Part shown: in pieces, positions 191 through 11,064 of the stretch
Layout of the letters: every line of letters begins with the position of its first letter
Position numbering within the stretch: position 1 is the stretch's first letter
Assembly (NCBI GenBank): GCA_021812735.1
Contig: JAKAMV010000234.1
Span: forward strand, 1 to 11,209
Length of the DNA: 11,209 nt
DNA from: Chloroflexota bacterium
GTDB taxonomy: Bacteria; Chloroflexota; Limnocylindria; Limnocylindrales; CSP1-4
Reading direction: 5' to 3'
Position numbers and translations under genes: made by a program
Notes under the pieces: model-generated
Database searches by the model: none
What the model saw: the letters and a program-made list of their open reading frames with translations, nothing else
Told to the model about the DNA's origin: nothing

Positions 191-958
191 ATGGACCTCG
201 GACTCGCCGGGCGACGCGCCCTCGTGGGCGCGGGCGCCTCGGGCATCGGCAATGGCATCGCGACCGCGCTCGCTGGGGAGGGCGCCAGGGTCGCCCTTAT
301 CGGGCGGACGGTGGCGAGGGTCGAGGCGGAGGCGTCTCGGCTGGGCGGCCTGCCCGTGGTCGAGGATCTGTCCACGCCGGACGGGCCAGCGAAGGCGGTC
401 GCCACGGCGGTCGCCGGTCTCGGCGGGCTCGACCTGCTGGTGGCCTGCACCGGCGGGCCGCCCAGCGGCACCTTCGAGGCGCTCGACGAGGCGGCCTGGG
501 AGGCGGCGATCAGCGGCACGCTGCAGTCGGTGCTGCGCCTGGTCCGGGCCGCGCTACCCCACCTGCGCGAGGGCGGAGCCCCGGCGATCCTGATCGTGCT
601 CTCCTCGTCGGTCCGCGAGCCGATCCCGGCCCTGATGGCGTCCAATGTCCTGCGGCCGGGCCTGGCGGGGCTCGTCAAGGCGCTCACCGCGGAGATCGCG
701 CCGATCAGGATCAACGGCGTGGCGCCGGGCCGGATCGCCACCGAGCGGATCGAGTACCTCGACGGCGTCCGAGCCCGGGCGGCCGGTGTGACCGCGGAGG
801 AGATCGGCCGGCGTGCGAAGGCCACGATCCCGCTGGGCCGCTACGGCGACATCGCGGAGATCGGCCGGGTGGGCGCGTTCCTGCTGTCGCCCGCCGCGTC
901 CTTCGTCACCGGAGCGATCGTCCCGGTGGACGGCGGCATGGTGCGTGCCCTGCCGTAG
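191..958 (+). CDS. Divergent short-chain dehydrogenase/reductase (SDR), catalytic Tyr/Lys not conserved
   Basis: 255 residues, the usual length of a classical single-domain SDR. The N-terminal Rossmann motif is G13-AGASGIG-G20, so the common TGxxxGIG has lost its Thr. An S138-S139-S140 run follows the fourth strand, and the end has the usual SFVTGAIVPVDGG (about 237-249). Anchored on the GLxGLxK helix, the YxxxK catalytic pair of E. coli FabG (Tyr151, Lys155) falls on Ser151 and Arg155 here. Similar Ser-Asn-x-x-Arg versions occur in annotated SDR proteins, so this is probably a divergent subfamily rather than a decayed gene; the reading frame is intact. Whether it is an oxidoreductase with altered chemistry or a binding protein is open. 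The ATG has GGAGG five bases upstream. The MarR gene follows on the same strand after 71 bp containing its own operator, so I would not call them one operon. Substrate unknown. Confidence 0.88.
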   Translation: MDLGLAGRRALVGAGASGIGNGIATALAGEGARVALIGRTVARVEAEASRLGGLPVVEDLSTPDGPAKAVATAVAGLGGLDLLVACTGGPPSGTFEALDEAAWEAAISGTLQSVLRLVRAALPHLREGGAPAILIVLSSSVREPIPALMASNVLRPGLAGLVKALTAEIAPIRINGVAPGRIATERIEYLDGVRARAAGVTAEEIGRRAKATIPLGRYGDIAEIGRVGAFLLSPAASFVTGAIVPVDGGMVRALP

Positions 959-1029: not shown

Positions 1030-1566
1030 ATGCAGACCCCCATGCCCTCCATGCCTGCCCCGACCCGGGTGGAGCCCGCGGTCGAGATGGCCGACCTCCT
1101 CAGCCAGGTCGTCCGGCAGCTCCATCGCCGGACGAGCGAGGCGCTCGCCCCGCTCGGGCTCTCCCGGGCGCAGGCAAGGGTGATCCGCCTCCTCGCCCAC
1201 GGCCCGCTGCGGATGGCGGCGATCGCCGAGCGGCTCTCCGTCGTGCCGCGGACGGTGACCGATCTCGTGGACGATGTCGAGGCGGCCGGGCTGGTCGAGC
1301 GGCGGCCCGACCCGGGTGATCGGCGCTCGTCGCTCGTGGCGCTGACGGCGGACGGCCAGCTCCTGCTCGACCGCCTGGAGGTCGCCAGGCGGGAGAGCGC
1401 CGAGCAGGTCTTCGGGCAGCTCGGTCCGGCAGACCGGGCCCTGCTGCTCCGTCTCCTCGTCAGCCTGACCGGCGAGGCCACCGGCGAACCCGCGCCCGGG
1501 GCACGGCCGGGGCCCGGAGCGGTCGAGACGGCGCCAGCCCCAGCCGCCCGGGAGCGTGCGCGATGA
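1030..1566 (+). CDS. MarR-family winged-helix transcriptional regulator
   Basis: 178 residues. The N-terminal helix (about 18-41) is the MarR dimerisation element. The DNA-binding winged helix spans about 44-110: a helix-turn-helix around R61-D81 (MAAIAERLSVVPRTVTDLV) and a wing with the family motif D94-PGDRRS-S100. A C-terminal dimerisation helix runs to about 146, followed by a roughly 30-residue Ala/Pro/Gly-rich tail that is probably disordered. The start at 1030 is chosen because the operator and -10 box end just before it; in-frame ATGs at 1042 and 1051 have no ribosome binding site either. Its TGA overlaps the exporter start (ATGA at 1563-1566), so the two are translationally coupled. 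The context says it senses a toxic compound or drug and controls the exporter and itself. The ligand cannot be told from the sequence. Confidence 0.93.
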   Translation: MQTPMPSMPAPTRVEPAVEMADLLSQVVRQLHRRTSEALAPLGLSRAQARVIRLLAHGPLRMAAIAERLSVVPRTVTDLVDDVEAAGLVERRPDPGDRRSSLVALTADGQLLLDRLEVARRESAEQVFGQLGPADRALLLRLLVSLTGEATGEPAPGARPGPGAVETAPAPAARERAR

Positions 1567-3488
1567 GCATGATGGGCGGATCGGGCATGGGCGGGTGGCA
1601 CCTCATGCGCTCGTTCCGGCGTGACGATTCCGTCCGCTCGCAGCGCCTTGCGCCCGGCCTGGTCCGGCGGATCGCGCGGTTCGCGGCACCGTACCGGCGC
1701 CTGCTCGTCGTGTTCCTCGTGCTGATCGTGATCGATGCCGCGGTTGGCGCCGCGAACCCGCTCGTCTATGCCGCGGTCATCGACCGCGGCATCCTGCTCG
1801 GCGACTCGTCGCTGGTCATCGAGCTCGCGCTGCTCCTCGTGCTCCTCGCGGCTTTTGACGCGGTCCTCTCGCTCGCCGAGCGCTGGATCTCGGCACGGGT
1901 GGGCGAGGGGCTGATCTTCGACATGCGGACGCAGGTCTTCGCGCACTTCCAGCGCATGCCGGTCGCGTTCTTCACCAGGACCCAGACGGGCGCCCTCGTG
2001 AGCCGTCTCAACAGCGATGTCCTCGACGCCCAGAGCGCGTTCACGAACACCCTCTCGTCGGTCGTCGGCAATGCCATCACGGTCCTCGCGACGCTGATCG
2101 CGATGTTCTTCCTGAGCTGGCAGATCACGCTGCTCGCGCTCGCGCTGTTCCCGCTGTTCGTGCTGCCGGCGCGCTGGGTTGGCAGGCGGATCCAGGCCAT
2201 CACGCGCGAGAGCTACAACCTCAACGCGGCGATGACCTCGACGATGACCGAGCGGTTCAACGTCGCCGGGGCGCTGCTGGTGCGGCTGTTCGGCCAGCCG
2301 CTCCGCGAGATCCACAGCTTCGAGGCCAAGGCCGGGCGCGTGCGCGACATCGGCGTGACGCAGGCGATGTACACGGCGGTGTTCATGACCTCGCTGCTGC
2401 TGACGGCGTCGCTCGCGACCGCGCTCGTCTACGGCGTGGGCGGCGTGCTCGCGGTCCAGGGCGCCCTGCAGGTCGGCACGGTCGTGGCGCTCGCCGCGTA
2501 CCTCAACCGCCTCTACGGACCCCTCATGTCGCTGTCCAACGCGCAGGTCAGCATCATGACCGCGCTTGTCTCGTTCGACCGCATCTTCGAGGTGCTGGAC
2601 CTCAAGCCGCTGGTGGCGGAGCGGCCGGGCGCGGTCGCCATCCCCCGGGGGCCCGCGAGCGTCGAGTTCGACCACGTCGACTTCAGCTACCCCACCGCCT
2701 CCGAGGTCTCGCTGGCGTCGCTGGAGTCGGTCGCGGTGCTCGACCAGGCGCCGTCGAGCCAGGTGCTCCACGACGTCTCGTTCACGGCCCGGGCAGGCGA
2801 GCTCGTCGCCCTCGTCGGGCCATCGGGCGCCGGCAAGACCACGATCAGCCAGCTCGTGCCCCGCCTGTACGACGTCCGGGCCGGGGCCATCCGGATCAAC
2901 GGCCTGGACACGAGGGACGCCACGTTCGACTCGCTGCGGGAGATGATCGGCGTCGTCACCCAGGACGCGCACCTGTTCCACGACACCATCCGGGCGAACC
3001 TTGCGTACGCGCGGCCCGACGCATCCGACGCGGAACTGCTCGACGCGCTCCGGGCAGCCCAGATCCTGCCGTTCGTTCGGACGCTGCCCGACGGCCTCGA
3101 CACGGTCGTCGGCGATCGCGGCTACCGGCTCTCGGGTGGCGAGAAGCAGCGGATCGCGATCGCCCGCCTGCTGCTCAAGGCGCCCGACATCGTCGTGCTC
3201 GACGAGGCGACGGCCCATCTCGATTCGGAGTCCGAGGTGGCCGTCCAGGAGGCGCTCCGGACCGCCCTCGCCGGGCGCACCTCGATCGTGATCGCCCACC
3301 GGCTCTCGACGATCCGGCAGGCGGACCAGATCCTGGTGGTCGCCGAGGGCCGGATCGTGGAGCGCGGTACCCACGCCGAGCTGCTCGCCGCCGGCGGGCT
3401 CTACGCCGAGCTCTACCAGACGCAGTTCGCCATCCAGGGGCCCGCCGGCACCGACGCCGAATCGCCCCCGCTCGCGGCCGCCGGCTGA
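1563..3488 (+). CDS. ABC exporter half-transporter, membrane domain fused to ATPase (multidrug/lipid type)
   Basis: 641 residues. A Gly/Met-rich N-terminus (1-12) is followed by a six-helix exporter membrane domain (about 40-330) with hydrophobic segments near 47-63, 85-103, 170-185, 187-203, 272-292 and 298-313. The nucleotide-binding domain starts near 365: aromatic A-loop Tyr376, Walker A G419-PSGAGKT-T426, Q-loop Gln467, signature L523-SGGEKQR-R530, Walker B IVVLDE with Asp547 and Glu548, D-loop AHLD (551-554) and switch His579. All catalytic residues are present, so it should be an active ATPase. As a half-transporter it must dimerise; no partner gene is adjacent, so a homodimer is the simplest reading. 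Between Tyr376 and VLHDVSF (401-407) the ATPase has about 15 more residues than usual. The start overlaps the marR stop, linking it to that regulator. The substrate is unknown; export of drugs, lipids or other hydrophobic molecules is inferred from family and regulator. Confidence 0.95.
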   Translation: MSMMGGSGMGGWHLMRSFRRDDSVRSQRLAPGLVRRIARFAAPYRRLLVVFLVLIVIDAAVGAANPLVYAAVIDRGILLGDSSLVIELALLLVLLAAFDAVLSLAERWISARVGEGLIFDMRTQVFAHFQRMPVAFFTRTQTGALVSRLNSDVLDAQSAFTNTLSSVVGNAITVLATLIAMFFLSWQITLLALALFPLFVLPARWVGRRIQAITRESYNLNAAMTSTMTERFNVAGALLVRLFGQPLREIHSFEAKAGRVRDIGVTQAMYTAVFMTSLLLTASLATALVYGVGGVLAVQGALQVGTVVALAAYLNRLYGPLMSLSNAQVSIMTALVSFDRIFEVLDLKPLVAERPGAVAIPRGPASVEFDHVDFSYPTASEVSLASLESVAVLDQAPSSQVLHDVSFTARAGELVALVGPSGAGKTTISQLVPRLYDVRAGAIRINGLDTRDATFDSLREMIGVVTQDAHLFHDTIRANLAYARPDASDAELLDALRAAQILPFVRTLPDGLDTVVGDRGYRLSGGEKQRIAIARLLLKAPDIVVLDEATAHLDSESEVAVQEALRTALAGRTSIVIAHRLSTIRQADQILVVAEGRIVERGTHAELLAAGGLYAELYQTQFAIQGPAGTDAESPPLAAAG

Positions 3489-3542
3489 CGGGGCAGACGG
3501 CCGCGCCGCCCGGATCGCTCGCGACAGGCGGCCCGTCAGCCG
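3482..3542. terminator. Inverted repeat spanning both stop codons of convergent genes, candidate bidirectional terminator
   Basis: CGGCTGACGGG (3482-3492) and CCCGTCAGCCG (3532-3542) are perfect 11-bp inverted arms 39 bases apart. The left arm contains the exporter TGA (3486-3488), the right arm the complement of the DapA-like TGA (3536-3538). A smaller internal pair, GCCGCC (3505-3510) with GGCGGC (3527-3532), could compete. No T-run follows on either strand, so an ordinary Rho-independent terminator is not proven. Transcript-end stabilisation is an alternative. Confidence 0.4.
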
Positions 3543-4477
3543 CCCAGGAGCTGGGGCAGCACCGATCCGGCGGCGAGATGCCGGTCGAGGCCAGTCCGCC
3601 GAAGCACGTCGTCCAGATCCGCCACGGTGCCGGGGTCGGCCGGCACGCCCGGCGCGCGCACGGTGGCGTGCGCGATCGCGCCGCGCCGCTGGTACACGAG
3701 CTTGCGGATGGGCAGGTTGAGCAGCGCCTGGTTCTCGAACCGGATCAGCGTCGCGTATCGGTCGAACACCGCGGCCGCCCCCGCCCGGTCGCCCGCGAAC
3801 CACCGGCGCACGATGGCGACCAGGACCTCGGGGAAGCCGAAGCCCGTCATCGTCCCGTGCGTCCCGCGCCGGAGCTCCTCGAGCAGCATCTCGCCGCCCA
3901 GCCCGCCGAGGACGACGATGTCCGGCGAGCCGGCAACCAGGCGCCCGGCCTTGGGCGGCGTCGGCTCCTCCTCGAGCTTCACCACGCGGCAGGCGGGTGC
4001 CTCCGCCGCCAGCGCGAGCAGGAACTCGGCGGACATCGGCACCCCGGACGACGCGGGGTGGTCCTGGACCACGATCGGCAGGTCGGTCGCCTCGGCCACG
4101 GCCAGGTAGTGGCGACGGAGCGCGGCGTCGGTCGGCCGCGCCAGCGGGGGCGGCGCCAGCATCACCGAGTGCGCCCCGGCGGCCTGCGCCTCGCGCGCGA
4201 ACGCCACCGCGCGGTCCGTGGCGGCGTGGGACACCCCGACGCACACGGGGATCGCCCCGCCGGCCGCCTCGACCGTCGTCCCCAGGACCGCGGACCGCTC
4301 CGCGTCGCCCAGGCGTGCGGCCTCGCCGAGCACGCCGAGGATCGTGAGACCGTCCACGCCGGTGGCGCGCACGAAGCGCACGAGCCCCGGGATCGAGGCG
4401 GTGTCGGGCGAGCCGTCCGGGAGGAACGGGGTGGGCACGATGTTCCACACCCCGCGCAGCGCCGCGATCGTGTCCAT
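3536..4477 (-). CDS. DapA/NanA-superfamily aldolase or dehydratase (dihydrodipicolinate synthase family), substrate unknown
   Basis: 313 residues, near the usual 290-310 for this (beta/alpha)8-barrel class I lyase family. The N-terminus has the family pattern GVWNIVPTPFLPDG (9-22), and GVLGE (48-52) stands where lysine-pathway enzymes have GTTGE. The Schiff-base lysine is probably Lys167 (VVKLEE). The YNxP motif carrying the catalytic Tyr is instead Q138-D139-H140-P141. A QDxP motif, as I recall, is found in branches acting on 2-keto-3-deoxy sugar acids, such as L-2-keto-3-deoxyarabonate dehydratase. True DHDPS activity is therefore unlikely; a sugar-acid dehydratase or aldolase role is inferred. 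The ATG at 4477-4475 has GGAGG (complement of 4482-4486) four bases upstream. It is divergent from iolB and may belong to the same sugar/cyclitol locus, but no direct step in inositol breakdown is obvious for it. Confidence 0.88.
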   Translation of the reverse strand: MDTIAALRGVWNIVPTPFLPDGSPDTASIPGLVRFVRATGVDGLTILGVLGEAARLGDAERSAVLGTTVEAAGGAIPVCVGVSHAATDRAVAFAREAQAAGAHSVMLAPPPLARPTDAALRRHYLAVAEATDLPIVVQDHPASSGVPMSAEFLLALAAEAPACRVVKLEEEPTPPKAGRLVAGSPDIVVLGGLGGEMLLEELRRGTHGTMTGFGFPEVLVAIVRRWFAGDRAGAAAVFDRYATLIRFENQALLNLPIRKLVYQRRGAIAHATVRAPGVPADPGTVADLDDVLRRTGLDRHLAAGSVLPQLLGG

Positions 4478-4978: not shown

Positions 4979-5878
4979 ATGACCCCTGTTCCCGAGGCCG
5001 GCAATCCCGACGCTGCCCTTGTCCCCCCGGGGGCCGCGCGGCATCTCCTCCGCCGCGCGGCCCGCCCGGACTCCCGGGGCGTGGTGAGCCACGTGGACCC
5101 CGCCAACGCCGGCTGGTCCTGGGTCACCTCCACCGTGTACCGCCTGGCGCCGGGTCAGGCCGTCGAGTGCGCCGCCGACGACCAGGAGCGCCTGGTGCTC
5201 GTCCTGGAGGGGCACGCCTCGGTCGCCGCCGGCGATCTCCGCCTCGATCGGGTCGGGTCCCGCGCCAGCGTGTTCGACGGTCCCGCCGCACCGGTGGTCC
5301 TCGTGGCACCCGGCGACGCGGTCAGCGTCACCGCGTTGTCGGAGGTGCTCCTCGTCATCGCAGCGGCGCCCGGGGGCCCCGTGTCGATCACGAGGTACCT
5401 CGCCCCCGAGGACATCCTGGTCGAGGCGCGCGGCGAGGGGAACACCGCCCGCCGGATCCACCACCTGATGGACACCGAGATGGAGGCCGGGCGCCTGATC
5501 GCGTTCGAGGTCTTCACGCCTGCCGGCAACTGGAGCAGCTACCCGCCCCACAAGCACGACACGGAGAACCCGCCGGTCGAGGCGTACCTCGAGGAGTACT
5601 ACTTCTACCGCTTCGCGAAGCCCCAGGGTTTCGGCTTCCAGCGCGTCTACACCAAAGACGGCTCGCTCGACGAGTCGATGGCGGTCACCGACGGCGATGT
5701 TGTCCTGGTCCCCAAGGGTTACCACCCGTTCGGTGCCCCGGCCGGCTACGACGCTTACTACCTCAACATCATGGCCGGTCCCAACCGAGCCTGGCACTTC
5801 ACGATCGACCCGGACCACGCCTGGCTCATGAACTGGTCGCCGGCGGCGCCTCGGGCCCAGGAGGACACGTCCGCATGA
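4979..5878 (+). CDS. iolB: 5-deoxy-glucuronate isomerase (IolB), myo-inositol catabolism
   Basis: 299 residues; the family is typically about 270, the surplus mostly being some 20 N-terminal residues. IolB is a cytoplasmic metal-dependent bicupin of the KduI/IolB family that converts 5-deoxy-glucuronate to 2-deoxy-5-keto-gluconate. The first cupin spans about 35-130. The second (about 165-285) carries the conserved part: WSSYPPHKHD with His191 and His193, EAYLEEYYFYR with Glu206, and PKGYHPF with His249, together the expected two-His/Glu/His metal site. The C-terminal YYLNIMAGP (260-268) is also typical. The ATG at 4979 is chosen because GGAGG (4966-4970) lies eight bases upstream and the promoter just before; the frame stays open further upstream but without family similarity. 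Its TGA overlaps the next gene's ATG, so the two are co-translated. A LacI-type site suggests induction by inositol or a breakdown product. Confidence 0.93.
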   Translation: MTPVPEAGNPDAALVPPGAARHLLRRAARPDSRGVVSHVDPANAGWSWVTSTVYRLAPGQAVECAADDQERLVLVLEGHASVAAGDLRLDRVGSRASVFDGPAAPVVLVAPGDAVSVTALSEVLLVIAAAPGGPVSITRYLAPEDILVEARGEGNTARRIHHLMDTEMEAGRLIAFEVFTPAGNWSSYPPHKHDTENPPVEAYLEEYYFYRFAKPQGFGFQRVYTKDGSLDESMAVTDGDVVLVPKGYHPFGAPAGYDAYYLNIMAGPNRAWHFTIDPDHAWLMNWSPAAPRAQEDTSA

Positions 5879-6969
5879 CCGAGACCGGCATCGCCAGCCC
5901 ACTGGCGAAGATGGTCGAGACGACGGCCACCGACTATTGGAACGATTCCTGCGCGGTCGCCGAGCTGGAGTACGCCGTGGCCCGCGGCGCGACCGGCGCC
6001 ACCTCCAACCCGACGATCGTCGGCGAGGTCATGAAGAAGGAGAAGGACCACTGGGTGCCGCGCGTCCGCGAGGTCGCGGCCGCCAACCCCACCTGGTCCG
6101 AGGTCGAGATCACCTGGCAGCTCATCGAGGAGATGGGCCAGCGGGGCGCCGCCATCCTCCAGCCCGTGTTCGAGGCCCACGGCGGCCGGAAGGGGCGCCT
6201 CTCGCTCCAGACGAACCCGGCCAACTACCGCACGCCAGACCGGATGACCGAGCAGGCCGTGCACTTCAGCACGCTGGCGCCGAACATCCAGGTCAAGTTC
6301 CCGTGCACGGCGGAGGGCCTGGTCGCGGCCGAGGAGGCCACGGCCCGGGGCGTGTGCGCCAACGTCACCGTCGTGTTCACCGTGGCCCAGTGCATCGCGG
6401 CCGCCGAGGCGGTGGAACGGGGCCTGCGGCGGCTCGAGGCGGCAGGCGGTGACGCCAGCCATATGACCCCGGTGTGCTCGCTGATGGTCGGCCGGCTCGA
6501 CGACTGGATGAAGGTCCTCGTGGACAAGGACGCCATCGCGCTCCACCCCGACGCCCCGAACTGGGCAGGGATCGCCGCCTTCAAGCGGGCGTACGGCATC
6601 TACCAGGAGCGCGGCTACCGGACGCGACTGCTCGCCGCGGCCTACCGCCATCGGCTGCACTGGACCGAGCTCGTGGGCGCGGACGCGGTGCTCACCATGC
6701 CGCACGCGTGGCAGGTCCGGTTCAACAACTCCGGGATCGACCCCGTCGAGCGGATCGACATCCCGGTGGACCAGGCGCTGATCGACGACCTGTCCGCGCG
6801 GATCCCCGATTTCCGCCGGGCCTACGAGCCGGACGGCCTGGTCCCGGCCGAGTTCGTGACCTTCGGCGCGACGGCCCGGACCTTGCGAGGCTTCGTGCAG
6901 AGCTACCACGACCTCGTCGGCGTCGTCAGGGATATTGTTCTTCCCAACCCGGACGCGAAGGCCGGCTGA
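5875..6969 (+). CDS. Transaldolase-family protein in place of IolC/IolJ; possible 2-deoxy-5-keto-gluconate-cleaving enzyme
   Basis: 364 residues, in the range of the longer transaldolases. Family landmarks are present: YWNDSC with Asp24, ATSNPTIV (42-49) with Asn45, Schiff-base Lys141 in VKFPCTAEG (140-148), the NVTVVF strand (163-168), VGRLDDW with Arg207 (205-211) and AAAYRHR with Arg258. Compared by eye with E. coli TalB, catalytic Glu96 becomes Gln112 (LSLQTNP), Phe178 becomes Met204 and Ser226 becomes Ala256. Both phosphate-binding arginines (TalB Arg181, Arg228) are kept. Gln at the Glu96 place is also found in fructose-6-phosphate aldolase. The gene overlaps iolB by ATGA and precedes mmsA/iolA, so it very likely acts on an inositol intermediate. 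Inference: cleavage of 2-deoxy-5-keto-gluconate at C3-C4, releasing malonate semialdehyde and either moving the dihydroxyacetone unit to glyceraldehyde-3-phosphate (giving fructose-6-phosphate) or freeing it. Ordinary pentose-phosphate transaldolase is the alternative. Confidence 0.85.
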   Translation: MTETGIASPLAKMVETTATDYWNDSCAVAELEYAVARGATGATSNPTIVGEVMKKEKDHWVPRVREVAAANPTWSEVEITWQLIEEMGQRGAAILQPVFEAHGGRKGRLSLQTNPANYRTPDRMTEQAVHFSTLAPNIQVKFPCTAEGLVAAEEATARGVCANVTVVFTVAQCIAAAEAVERGLRRLEAAGGDASHMTPVCSLMVGRLDDWMKVLVDKDAIALHPDAPNWAGIAAFKRAYGIYQERGYRTRLLAAAYRHRLHWTELVGADAVLTMPHAWQVRFNNSGIDPVERIDIPVDQALIDDLSARIPDFRRAYEPDGLVPAEFVTFGATARTLRGFVQSYHDLVGVVRDIVLPNPDAKAG

Positions 6970-7022
6970 CGCCCCGTCGGCCCGCGCGTTCCGCGTCAGT
7001 CGGCACCCTCACCTGGAGGCAC

Positions 7023-8549
7023 ATGGTGGCCAGCGAAACCCTGATCGAGGCGGCAGCGCCCGTCCTCTCGCACTACATCGACGCGGCTGAGGTCGCCGTC
7101 GCGCCCGAGGCCACGGGCCCGGTCTACAACCCGGCCACCGGCAAGGTCATCGCGCGCGTGCCGCGCGGCGGCCAGACGGAGGTGGACGCCGCCGTCGCCT
7201 CCGCCAAGGCGGCCTTCCCCGCCTGGCGCGACATGCCGCTCATCGCGCGCAGCAACATCTTCTTCAACTTCCGCGCGCTGATGTACGAGCACCGCGAGGA
7301 TCTCGCCCGTCTCATCACCCGAGACCACGGCAAGACCTTCCCGGATGCCCTGGCCGAGGTCCTGCGCGGCATCGAGACGATCGACTTCGCCTGCGGGCTG
7401 CCCGTCCACCTGTCGGGCCTGAACACGCCCAACGTGTCCACCAAGGTGGACACCTCCACGCTGCGAGTCCCGCTGGGCGTCACGGCGGCGATCACGCCGT
7501 TCAACTTCCCGGTCATGGTCCCGACCTGGATCTACCCGATGGCGCTGATGGCCGGCAACACGGTCATCCTCAAGCCGTCCTCCCACACGCCGGGCGCCAC
7601 GCAGCTCCAGGCCAAGCTGTGGACGCAGGCCGGCGGGCCCAAGGGCACGTTCAACGTCGTCTACGGCGGCAAGGAGGCCGTCAAGGCGCTCGTCGAGCAC
7701 AAGGACGTCAAGGCGATCCAGTTCGTCGGGTCCACCGCGGTCGGCCGCTACGTGTTCGAGGAGGGGACGAAGCACGGCAAGCGCGTCGGGTCGTACACCT
7801 CGGCCAAGAACGCGATGCTCGTGCTGCCCGACGCGGACCTGGACAACGTGGCGGACGCGGCCGTGGCGTCGGGCTTCGGCTCGGCCGGCGAGCGCTGCAT
7901 GGCCCAGACCATGATGATCGCGGTCGGCGACACGGCCGACAGGCTCCGCCCGATGATCCTCGAGCGGATCGCCAAGCTCAAGATCGCGGACGGCATGGAG
8001 CCGGGCGCCGACATGGGCCCGATCTACTCCACCGAGCACCGCGAGTCCGTCATCAAGTGGATCGGCATCGGCGAGGCCGAGGGCGCGGAACTGGTGGTGG
8101 ACGGCCGGAAATTCGTGGGCCCGAACCCCGACGGCTTCTTCCTCGGCGTGACCCTGTTCGACCACGTCACCCCGGCCATGAAGATCTACCAGGAGGAGAT
8201 CTTCGGCCCGGTGTTCAGCATCGTGCGCGCCAAGACCTACGAGGAGGGCCTGGCCCTCATCAACGGCCACAAGTACGCGAACGGCACGGCGATCTTCACC
8301 ACCAACGGCGGCGCCGCCCGGCGCTTCAAGCTCGAGGTGGACGTCCCGATGATCGGCGTCAACGTGCCGATCCCGGTGCCCGCCGGCTTCATGAGCTTCT
8401 CGGGCGCCAAGGACTCGTCCGTCGGCGACCTGCCGATGCGGGGCGAGGACGGCGTTCGCTTCTGGACCCAGCAGAAGCTGATCACCGAGCGCTGGCCCGA
8501 GCCCGGCAAGCAGGGGCCGCTGTCGCTGGTCTTCCCCGGCAACTCCTAG
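7023..8549 (+). CDS. mmsA: CoA-acylating (methyl)malonate-semialdehyde dehydrogenase
   Basis: 508 residues, normal for the family. It would convert malonate semialdehyde (or methylmalonate semialdehyde) with NAD+ and CoA to acetyl-CoA (or propionyl-CoA) and CO2; in inositol catabolism this is the IolA step. The aldehyde dehydrogenase fold shows TPFNFPVMVP with Asn161, LKPS with Lys184, FVGST (234-238), catalytic Cys292 in GSAGERCMAQ, and EEIFGPV with Glu392. SAKNA (260-264) corresponds to the GAKNH stretch of MmsA/IolA, where hydrolytic ALDHs have their general-base Glu. Arg291 next to the Cys fits the carboxylate-binding Arg known from Bacillus IolA. The C-terminal DLPMRGEDGVRFWTQQK also matches. 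GGAGG (7015-7019) is 3 nt from the ATG and 6 nt from the next codon, GTG at 7026, so either may be the start. It follows the transaldolase-like gene by 53 bp, probably in the same operon. Confidence 0.93.
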   Translation: MVASETLIEAAAPVLSHYIDAAEVAVAPEATGPVYNPATGKVIARVPRGGQTEVDAAVASAKAAFPAWRDMPLIARSNIFFNFRALMYEHREDLARLITRDHGKTFPDALAEVLRGIETIDFACGLPVHLSGLNTPNVSTKVDTSTLRVPLGVTAAITPFNFPVMVPTWIYPMALMAGNTVILKPSSHTPGATQLQAKLWTQAGGPKGTFNVVYGGKEAVKALVEHKDVKAIQFVGSTAVGRYVFEEGTKHGKRVGSYTSAKNAMLVLPDADLDNVADAAVASGFGSAGERCMAQTMMIAVGDTADRLRPMILERIAKLKIADGMEPGADMGPIYSTEHRESVIKWIGIGEAEGAELVVDGRKFVGPNPDGFFLGVTLFDHVTPAMKIYQEEIFGPVFSIVRAKTYEEGLALINGHKYANGTAIFTTNGGAARRFKLEVDVPMIGVNVPIPVPAGFMSFSGAKDSSVGDLPMRGEDGVRFWTQQKLITERWPEPGKQGPLSLVFPGNS

Positions 8550-8970: not shown

Positions 8971-10089
8971 TCAGCCCTCCTCGGCGGCGATCTCCTCGAG
9001 CGTGACGCGTCGGCCCTCGCGCGCGCTGCGCACGGCCGCGTCCACGATCCGCTGGATATGCAGTCCGTCGGCGAGGTCGGGCTTGACCGGCTGCCCCGCG
9101 GCGACGGCAGAGACGAAGGCGCGCGCCTGCGTCTCCTGCTCGCGGAAGACGTGCTTGTACGTCTCGTGGACGTCGTCGCGCGGCGCGCCGCCCCAGCAGC
9201 GGTCGGGGATCGGCAGGTCGTGGACGGCGTTCTCGTCTGCGCGGGCCCCGGAGACCGCCTGGAGCCGGATCCAGTCGTTGACGTGGTGGAGCGTGCCGCC
9301 CGACCCGTGCAGCTCGATGCCGTGCAGCTGCCCGAACGACGACGGCTCGTGCGCCACGGACGAGACGTGCAGGTTGCCCGTCGCGCCGTTGGCGAACCGC
9401 AGCAGCATGATCGCGGAATCCTCGCCGCGAGGGTAGTCGGCGCCGTCGGGCCGGTTCGCGCGAGGCACGTTCTGGCCGAACTCCGCGGTCACGGCCTCCA
9501 CAGGCCCGTACAGCCAGTAGGCGTAGTACGCCAGGTGCGAGCCCAGGTCACCCGCGAGCGCAGCTCCCGCGACGTCGAGGTCGAACCGCCAGGCGTAGGC
9601 GCCGTCGCGCCCGTAGCCCGCGAAGTAGCGCATGTTCAGGTGGTAGGGCTGCCCGATGTACCCCTCGTCCACGAGCTCCTTGAGGTACCGCATCCCGGGC
9701 ATGTTCCGATACGTGAAGGGCACCATCGTGATGAGGCCCTTGGCGGCCGCGAGGTCCGCCAGGCGCCGCGCCTCCGATGACGACAGTCCGACCGGCTTCT
9801 CGCACAGCACGTGCAGGCCGCGCTCCAGGGCCGCGTGGGCGATGGGGTAGTGGGCGCGGTTGGGCGTGGCCACGATGACCGCGTCGAGCGGCTCGACGGC
9901 GATCATCTCCTCGGCGGTGGCGTACGCGGACGGGATGCCCCACTGGGCGGCGACCTGCCGCGTGTGCTCGGGCCGGGTCCCGGCGATCGCCCGCACGTCG
10001 GCCAGGGGATGCCCGGCCAGCGCGGGCAGGTACATGGAATCGACCCACCAGCTCGTTCCCGCCAAGCCGATCCGCACCTTGTCGGTCAT
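8971..10089 (-). CDS. Gfo/Idh/MocA-family NAD(P)-dependent oxidoreductase, possible inositol dehydrogenase
   Basis: 372 residues. The N-terminal Rossmann domain (about 4-125) opens with the nucleotide loop G8-LAGTS-S13, a G-x-x-G variant common in this family, then AGTRPE after the second strand and CEKP (96-99) with Lys98. The C-terminal alpha/beta domain carries YAWRFD (165-170) and GDLGSH (180-185). Lys98, Asp181 and His185 correspond to the catalytic Lys/Asp/His of Bacillus IolG. The family oxidises or reduces a sugar or cyclitol hydroxyl in the cytoplasm. Next to iolE and opposite iolB, oxidation of myo-inositol or a stereoisomer to an inosose is the best guess, but family sequence does not fix substrate, so no symbol is given. 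GGAGGAG (complement of 10095-10101) is five bases from the ATG. It lies 75 bp after the iolE-like gene on the same strand. Confidence 0.9.
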   Translation of the reverse strand: MTDKVRIGLAGTSWWVDSMYLPALAGHPLADVRAIAGTRPEHTRQVAAQWGIPSAYATAEEMIAVEPLDAVIVATPNRAHYPIAHAALERGLHVLCEKPVGLSSSEARRLADLAAAKGLITMVPFTYRNMPGMRYLKELVDEGYIGQPYHLNMRYFAGYGRDGAYAWRFDLDVAGAALAGDLGSHLAYYAYWLYGPVEAVTAEFGQNVPRANRPDGADYPRGEDSAIMLLRFANGATGNLHVSSVAHEPSSFGQLHGIELHGSGGTLHHVNDWIRLQAVSGARADENAVHDLPIPDRCWGGAPRDDVHETYKHVFREQETQARAFVSAVAAGQPVKPDLADGLHIQRIVDAAVRSAREGRRVTLEEIAAEEG

Positions 10090-10164: not shown

Positions 10165-11064
10165 CTAGACGCCGATCGACCGCAGGTAATCGCGGTTCCG
10201 TTGCGCGCTCTCGCGCGGGCTGCCCATGCCGGGCAGGACGTCCTGCTCCACGACGATCCAGCCCTGGTAGCCGATCTCGTCGAGCGCCTTGAGCATCCCC
10301 GGGAAGTCCACCGCGCCCTTGCCAAGCTCGCAGAACACGCCATGGCCCACGGACTCCGGTCCGCTCCACTCGTACTTGCGGGAGTCCGCCATGACGTTGG
10401 GCTCCGCGTCCTTGAAGTGGACGTGCCACACGCGATCGCGGAACTCGCGGACGGCCGCCACCGGGTCGCCGCCTGCGCCGAAGGTCCAGTGGCCGGTGTC
10501 GAGGCACAGACCCAGCAGCGCCGGGTCCGTCAGCTCGAACAGCTTGCGGGCCTCGGCCTCGGTCTCGACGAACGTGCCGATGTGCTGGTGGACCACGGTC
10601 CGGATCCCGGCCTCTTCCCAGACGCGCTTGGCGACGTAGTTCGCGCCGTCGGCGAGCACCTTGAACGCCTCGTCGCCGAGGCCGTCCTGCGGCCGGACCC
10701 GACCGGCCACCTTGGTCCGGACCGGGTCCCCGTACGGATCGTTGCCCAGCACCACGACGGCGTCCTTGCCGCCCACGCGCGCCAGCTGCTTGGCGGTGCG
10801 CACCGCGTCGTCGGCAGAGCTCTGATGCCTGGACTTGTCATGGAGCCAGACGCTGACCCACGAGCCGACCAGGGCTAGGCCGCGGCGGTCGAGCTCTCCC
10901 CTGAGCTGCCCGGGATCGGTGGGCATGAAGCCCCAGTCGCCGAGTTCGGTGCCGAGGTAGCCCGTCTGGGACATCTCGTCGATGACCCTGTCGTAGCCGG
11001 CGGTCTCGCCCTCGATGCCCTCGATGACGCCCCACGAGCACGGGGCGTTTGCGATGCGAACCAT
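10165..11064 (-). CDS. iolE: IolE-like inosose dehydratase (xylose-isomerase-type TIM barrel)
   Basis: 299 residues, against about 297 for Bacillus IolE. IolE dehydrates 2-keto-myo-inositol (scyllo-inosose) to a trihydroxycyclohexane-dione in the cytoplasm, using a divalent metal. Features shared with IolE as I know it: NAPCSWG at the start, GTELGDWGF (38-46), VVHQHIGTFVET (157-168), LCLDTGH (186-192), HVHFKDAEPNVM (214-225), GAVDF (250-254) and GWIVVEQ (268-274). Probable metal ligands are Glu167, Asp189, one or both of His214/His216, and Glu273. GGAGAG (complement of 11070-11075) is five bases from the ATG. The upstream LacI-family gene ends 17 bases before it, so they look like one operon. 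Related isomerases such as IolI or IolH share the fold, but the HVHFKDAxxNVM and GTELG segments favour IolE. Confidence 0.82.
   Translation of the reverse strand: MVRIANAPCSWGVIEGIEGETAGYDRVIDEMSQTGYLGTELGDWGFMPTDPGQLRGELDRRGLALVGSWVSVWLHDKSRHQSSADDAVRTAKQLARVGGKDAVVVLGNDPYGDPVRTKVAGRVRPQDGLGDEAFKVLADGANYVAKRVWEEAGIRTVVHQHIGTFVETEAEARKLFELTDPALLGLCLDTGHWTFGAGGDPVAAVREFRDRVWHVHFKDAEPNVMADSRKYEWSGPESVGHGVFCELGKGAVDFPGMLKALDEIGYQGWIVVEQDVLPGMGSPRESAQRNRDYLRSIGV

Follow-up and report, generated by a model that had tools for sequence, protein, structure and literature searches.

We identified a gene for a transaldolase-family protein, here called TAL, located between iolB and mmsA in an 11,209-nucleotide stretch of DNA from a Chloroflexota bacterium (contig JAKAMV010000234.1 of assembly GCA_021812735.1; the whole stretch is referred to below as the window). 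Inositol derived from phytate serves widely as a source of carbon. In the Bacillus-type pathway (IolG-E-D-B-C-J-A), the product of IolB, 2-deoxy-5-keto-D-gluconate (DKG), is the substrate of the kinase IolC, which is followed by a DKG-phosphate aldolase (IolJ, or a protein of the LacD/DeoC type or with DUF2090). TAL is a candidate replacement for both of these enzymes.

Gene order and context in the source genome

An earlier reading of the sequence alone (the original prediction) had described iolB, a transaldolase-family gene and mmsA in one run, with iolC and iolJ both missing from the window. Coordinates and profile scans bear out this order, and neither iolC nor iolJ is present among the eight genes and the MarR regulator that were scanned (Table 1). 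The start codon of TAL (5875-5877) overlaps the TGA stop of iolB (5876-5878) in the sequence ATGA. The TAL stop codon ends at 6969, and a possible ATG of mmsA, preceded by GGAGG, follows 53 bases on at 7023; this start was taken from the sequence reading, as the profile scan of mmsA began at 7056. Besides IolB and MmsA/IolA, the window shares IolG-like and IolE-like proteins with the Bacillus-type pathway, and IolD is encoded elsewhere in the genome, on contigs C53 and C163. In contrast, TAL stands in the place of IolC, for which no gene above the curated cut-off was found in this genome (2.05 Mb, 317 contigs, 72% complete), as the original prediction would have it.

The genome carries a second iolB on contig C181 and three matches to the TAL_FSA family, namely TAL of the window (134 bits), a 54% relative on C163 that lies directly behind the IolD gene, and a gene on C110 (248 bits). 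The most IolC-like protein scores 170 of 300 bits and is encoded by a PfkB-family gene on C23. We set this gene aside as a hidden iolC because its 10.5-kb contig carries a pdxS-type gene (SOR_SNZ) and none of the inositol gene labels used turned up there. A genome of the same genus (G384) has genes of the second kind in one run, namely iolB, an IolG-like gene, an IclR regulator, iolD, TAL, an IolE-like gene and an IolG-like gene, and the 16-kb stretch with this run has no match to any IolC query.

Family and active site of TAL

TAL matches the Pfam family TAL_FSA (PF00923) with 135.3 bits against a cut-off of 27, and its predicted fold is the transaldolase fold. However, it misses every NCBIfam transaldolase cut-off that it matched, both for classical transaldolases (54.5 of 396 bits for TIGR00874, 64.2 of 234 for TIGR00876 and 116.5 of 367 for PRK03343) and for fructose-6-phosphate aldolase (FSA; 50.1 of 246 bits for TIGR00875).

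Active-site residues were compared over 67 members of the TAL clade aligned with TalB and FsaA of E. coli, with which TAL shares the predicted fold, the Schiff-base lysine and the donor-site Asn and Thr. The lysine, which is K141 in TAL (K140 if the initial Met is not counted), is present in all 67, as are the donor-site Asp, Asn and Thr and the equivalents of the anion-binding arginines R181 and R228 of TalB. The donor-site Asp aligns with that of FsaA, the TalB alignment being gapped at that position. Two positions differ from TalB, so that the classical transaldolase signature (Glu at the Glu96 site and Phe at the Phe178 site) is absent from the clade. The Glu96 site is Gln in 67/67 members, as in FsaA (Gln59), and the Phe178 site is Met in 66/67. 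FsaA is gapped at the latter site in our alignment, where we presume that the proton-shuttling Tyr131 of FSA belongs.

Distribution of TAL, iolB and iolC

We surveyed 400 Chloroflexota genomes, in which iolB was matched at an E-value of 0.001 and iolC was searched for in all iolB genomes with a curated cut-off of 300 bits. iolB was matched in 111 genomes, 99 of them above its own curated cut-off, and the TAL clade was found in 42. As the original prediction had anticipated, the clade co-occurs with iolB, which is matched in 33/42 genomes with TAL and in 78/358 without (p = 4e-13); outside the family of the source genome the figures are 16/17 and 75/350. The anticipated anti-correlation with iolC is also found. 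Above-cut-off iolC is present in 41 of the 111 iolB genomes, all of them among the 78 without TAL and none among the 33 with TAL, where 12.2 joint occurrences are expected (p = 1e-8, a value that, like the others given here, is inflated by kinship among the genomes). When iolB is held to its cut-off as well (n = 99), iolC occurs in 0/29 TAL genomes and 41/70 others (p = 4e-9), and when the family of the source genome is left out of an 80-genome set and iolC is counted from 260 bits, in 0/10 and 29/51 (p = 9e-4). Relaxing the limit to 260 bits in the full comparison yields a single genome with both genes, G352 (p = 4e-8). Missing data alone do not explain this pattern, since 26 of the 33 genomes with TAL and iolB are at least 90% complete.

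In a set of 296 Actinomycetota genomes TAL was found solely in the genome on which the set was centred, so that this phylum provides no replicate. Four TAL matches (G066:C4, G286:C28, G335:C38 and G030:C67) were flagged as having one stop codon inside, which may be the natural end of the gene.

Exchange of TAL and iolC at inositol loci

In 19/26 genomes TAL and iolB are no more than 300 bp apart, and in 22/26 no more than 20 kb, with both gene orders represented. Counted by locus, the distance is at most 300 bp in 25 and at most 6 kb in 29 of 66 TAL loci, and the adjacency recurs in several subclades of the TAL tree. This arrangement exceeds chance. Within the fetched neighbourhoods, mmsA is at most 300 bp from TAL at 13 of the 66 loci and at most 6 kb away at 18.

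Because kinship inflates the p-values, swaps between TAL and iolC were examined on a tree and within families. A tree of IolB from a quick search with one support value, covering the fetched iolB loci rather than all 111 genomes (57 rows, some genomes twice: 33 with TAL, 20 with iolC and 4 with neither), has at least six changes between the two states, and its starred branches force at least five changes of the TAL label. Both kinds occur in four families (f10, f19, f22 and f1), although in f1 this is due to G352 alone. In f10, one genome (G426, locus L159) has the order iolB-iolC-iolD-iolE-iolG and another (G376, locus L149) has LacI regulator-iolB-TAL-iolD-iolE-iolG. The latter genome is a single contig with no iolC match at an E-value of 1e-45; its IolB, IolD and IolG score above their equivalog cut-offs and its IolE below (209 of 290 bits). 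In a second pair, iolG-iolE-iolC-deoC-iolD-iolB (G214, locus L163) corresponds to iolG-mmsA-TAL-iolD-iolB (G246, locus L145). A relative from a thermophile (locus L041, in a MAG named Thermoflexus hugenholtzii) shows the order iolB-TAL-iolD, and its genome has no above-cut-off iolC. G352, the sole joint case at 260 bits, is telling in that it carries two modules on separate contigs: C4 has iolD-iolC (261 of 300 bits)-iolB together with a LacD-like gene (33%), and C6 has TAL-iolB.

Homologues of IolC are present in 10 of 46 neighbourhoods, namely the eight chosen as iolC type, the iolC module of G352 and locus L030, and aldolases of the DeoC/LacD type occur solely within these ten. No class II aldolase was found in the 46 neighbourhoods with one such aldolase from Shinella as the query; the search was confined to neighbourhoods, since glycolysis uses class II aldolases too.

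Proposed reaction

Read from C6, DKG is a 5-deoxy fructose analogue whose opposite end is a carboxylate. Turned end for end, it matches fructose in the D-threo configuration at C3-C4 that transaldolases need. We suggest that TAL is a dedicated transaldolase acting on unphosphorylated DKG. Its lysine would bind the keto group at C5, the bond between C3 and C4 would break, and the malonate semialdehyde released would be turned into acetyl-CoA by MmsA. The dihydroxyacetone unit left on the enzyme would then be transferred to a sugar phosphate; the likeliest acceptor is glyceraldehyde-3-phosphate, which would give fructose-6-phosphate.

Such an enzyme would do alone the work of IolC and the DKG-phosphate aldolase, and we regard the replacement of these two enzymes by TAL as very probable. 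We observed the gene neighbourhoods, the presence and absence patterns, the repeated swaps, the conserved catalytic residues and the predicted fold, and from these we infer that DKG is the substrate, that it is cleaved and that a sugar phosphate is the acceptor. The whole of this account, a DKG transaldolase with transfer to a sugar phosphate, is the best explanation and likely to be correct. We also lean, a little less firmly, towards the broader proposal that a new activity, DKG:glyceraldehyde-3-phosphate glyceronetransferase, underlies a second form of myo-inositol catabolism that dispenses with both DKG kinase and DKG-phosphate aldolase, and that the two forms have been swapped at least five times within Chloroflexota.

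The original prediction had read the operon as a transaldolase bypass of the kinase. The co-occurrence with iolB and the anti-correlation with iolC support this, with the chemistry as proposed above. Its term 'kinase-free' holds insofar as no dedicated DKG kinase would be needed. However, the fructose-6-phosphate formed would still receive a phosphate from phosphofructokinase, and therefore ATP need not be saved.

Exceptions and alternative functions

Several observations weigh against a dedicated replacement of IolC. The mutual exclusion of TAL and iolC is strong but not absolute, as above-cut-off iolC occurs in four of 40 genomes (the source genome and 39 reached through similarity to TAL). 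In the genome with TAL locus L031, one of the four, iolC is on the same contig as iolB and lies some 10 kb behind it. In another of the four, locus L030 combines both routes in one run (LacI regulator-iolC-TAL-iolD-mmsA-LacD-like aldolase-iolB-IolG-like). On the Clavibacter plasmid pCI3, a TAL of 47% identity lies about 10 kb from the iolC of an iol cluster that also has a DeoC-type aldolase. Among the best-covered plasmid relatives of TAL there is also one from Shinella (33%), in another context. Nine of the 42 TAL genomes have no iolB match, and above-cut-off iolD is found in only two of these nine and in only 24 of the 33 genomes with TAL and iolB. An above-cut-off iolC is likewise missing from 37 of the 78 iolB genomes without TAL. 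Of the eight iolC-type neighbourhoods, five are without a DeoC/LacD-type aldolase and only three have one, so that its absence beside TAL is weak evidence. Lastly, the Gln shared by the whole clade at the Glu96 site is that of the aldolase FsaA.

This residue bears on the possibility that TAL is an FSA-like aldolase, splitting DKG into malonate semialdehyde and free dihydroxyacetone, which a dihydroxyacetone or glycerol kinase would then phosphorylate; IolC and IolJ would still be replaced. Transaldolase and aldolase activities are described as interconvertible by exchange of the residues holding the catalytic water (PMC13259622), which would suit such an enzyme. We consider it unlikely. Where FSA presumably has Tyr131, the clade has Met, and the Met together with both retained arginines favours transfer over release, although not strongly. 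Transfer to a sugar phosphate is likewise favoured, not strongly, by the N-terminal halves of transketolase that are found nearby and by the lack of enrichment of dihydroxyacetone kinase (Dak1), which occurs in 19/33 TAL genomes and 28/41 iolC genomes (p = 0.47) and was not found in the incomplete source genome (72%). We set little store by Dak1 as a marker of free dihydroxyacetone. The transketolase halves lie within 6 kb of TAL at 7/66 loci, mostly those without iolB (four of the listed cases have no iolB near). Labels for transketolase, CoxM-like, PPDK, GntR, RpiR, LacI and CoA-transferase genes were borne out by family scans.

A second possibility, to which we assign a distinctly low probability, is that the main substrate of the clade is another keto sugar acid or a cyclitol product and that TAL forms a side branch in inositol operons. 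Part of the clade is indeed found in neighbourhoods unrelated to inositol. We fetched the TAL stretches of seven of the nine iolB-less genomes, and neither iolB nor iolD is present in them. In six, a gene with a phosphoenolpyruvate (PEP)-utiliser domain occurs instead (five times within 1 kb of TAL, once at a distance of 12 kb); the remaining one (G234) has mmsA, IolE-like and IolG-like genes. Part of the clade may therefore use this active site for a different role in another pathway, or the same activity may serve on other substrates. The few genomes with both TAL and iolC are also in keeping with another substrate, as are TAL-iolB pairs found next to a thiamine-diphosphate enzyme that is only about 30% like IolD. 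On the other hand, TAL genomes outside the family of the source genome match iolB with one exception, and in f10 TAL occupies the exact place of iolC.

The subclade near the gene for the PEP-utiliser mobile domain (602 amino acids) comprises loci L012-L025, L170-L174 and L176; by cluster, this gene is present at 10 of the 14 loci L012-L025. A 295-amino-acid protein without a Pfam hit and GntR and CoxM-like genes are also found at the loci of the subclade, in place of iolB. The pairs with the thiamine-diphosphate enzyme are at L126, L127, L133, L135 and L138, all but L135 having IolG- and IolE-like genes in addition, and are perhaps a variant for another cyclitol. At L031 (10001-20340), TAL, a split transketolase, IolO/IolE-like and CoA-transferase-like genes, an acyl-CoA dehydrogenase and iolB form one run that may encode a fermentative route for inositol. 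This run fits malonate semialdehyde as a product, since a 3-oxoacid CoA-transferase is reported to take the malonate semialdehyde step in Anaerostipes (PMC8355322).

It is very unlikely that TAL replaces only the IolJ aldolase, with an unrecognised sugar kinase phosphorylating DKG beforehand. The source genome does have PfkB-family genes, and at L030 TAL is directly behind iolC. However, the best of these PfkB genes is the one beside the pdxS-type gene on C23, the L030 run already includes a LacD-type aldolase, and transaldolases bind the unphosphorylated dihydroxyacetone end, where DKG-phosphate would carry its phosphate. Least credible is an ordinary pentose-phosphate transaldolase present in inositol operons by chance and rearranging triose phosphates made there, because, while family, fold, catalytic lysine and the seven neighbouring transketolase halves agree with it, the separate C110 gene is the far better TAL_FSA match, the NCBIfam cut-offs are missed, two catalytic-site positions differ and the mutual exclusion with iolC would be left unexplained.

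Relation to known pathways

The closest descriptions in the literature searched are those of the sulfo-TAL pathway and of an aldolase formed by IolC and DUF2090. The sulfofructose transaldolase (SqvA/SF-TAL) of the sulfo-TAL pathway (PMC9594981) works in the manner that we propose for DKG, here on the basis of genes. The fusion of IolC with DUF2090 was presented by Price et al. 2022 (PMC9007349) as another kind of DKG-phosphate aldolase and would, like TAL, be a non-orthologous solution for cleavage after IolB; unlike the proposed route it still needs the kinase. DUF2090 was found in 5/80 genomes and in none of the 26 with TAL, and was thus rejected as the missing aldolase. In line with the original prediction, which knew of no established description, we found none of a transaldolase in inositol catabolism in the titles, abstracts and passages covered, with few subscription papers and preprints among them; co-mentions of transaldolase, myo-inositol and iolB were in unrelated passages.

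Other genes of the window

The remaining genes are listed in Table 1. The window maps to contig C34 of the genome from position -2127, so that about its first 2,100 nucleotides extend past that contig. The IolG-like gene also scores below the cut-off of the levoglucosan dehydrogenase profile (129 of 650 bits). The DapA/NanA-family gene is below every curated cut-off that it matched and is 84-89% conserved in relatives (loci L005-L009 and L011).

Table 1. Genes of the window, with the three-gene run first
Feature	Position	Strand	Profile match or remark
iolB, 5-deoxy-glucuronate isomerase	4979..5878	+	TIGR04378, 301.2 bits (cut-off 205)
TAL, transaldolase-family protein, proposed cleaver of DKG	5875..6969	+	PF00923
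mmsA/iolA, CoA-acylating (methyl)malonate-semialdehyde dehydrogenase	7023..8549	+	TIGR01722, 601.8 bits (cut-off 448.5)
IolG-like Gfo/Idh/MocA dehydrogenase, possible inositol dehydrogenase	8971..10089	-	TIGR04380, 112 of 355 bits, below cut-off
IolE-like inosose dehydratase	10165..11064	-	TIGR04379, 188 of 290 bits, below cut-off
Short-chain dehydrogenase	191-958		upstream of iolB
MarR regulator	1039-1566 (as scanned)		upstream of iolB
ABC exporter	1563-3488		upstream of iolB
DapA/NanA-family gene	3536-4477	-	upstream of and divergent from iolB

Implications

A large survey treated iolB, iolC, iolD and iolE as the core essential genes of inositol breakdown, accepted three of the four, and attributed a missing fourth to incomplete sequence, assembly errors or frameshifts (PMC9430895). 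If the proposed route is correct, some of these gaps would reflect a genuine second pathway, a gene would be assigned to a new enzyme activity, and the logic of the sulfo-TAL pathway would be a general way to cut acid sugars.

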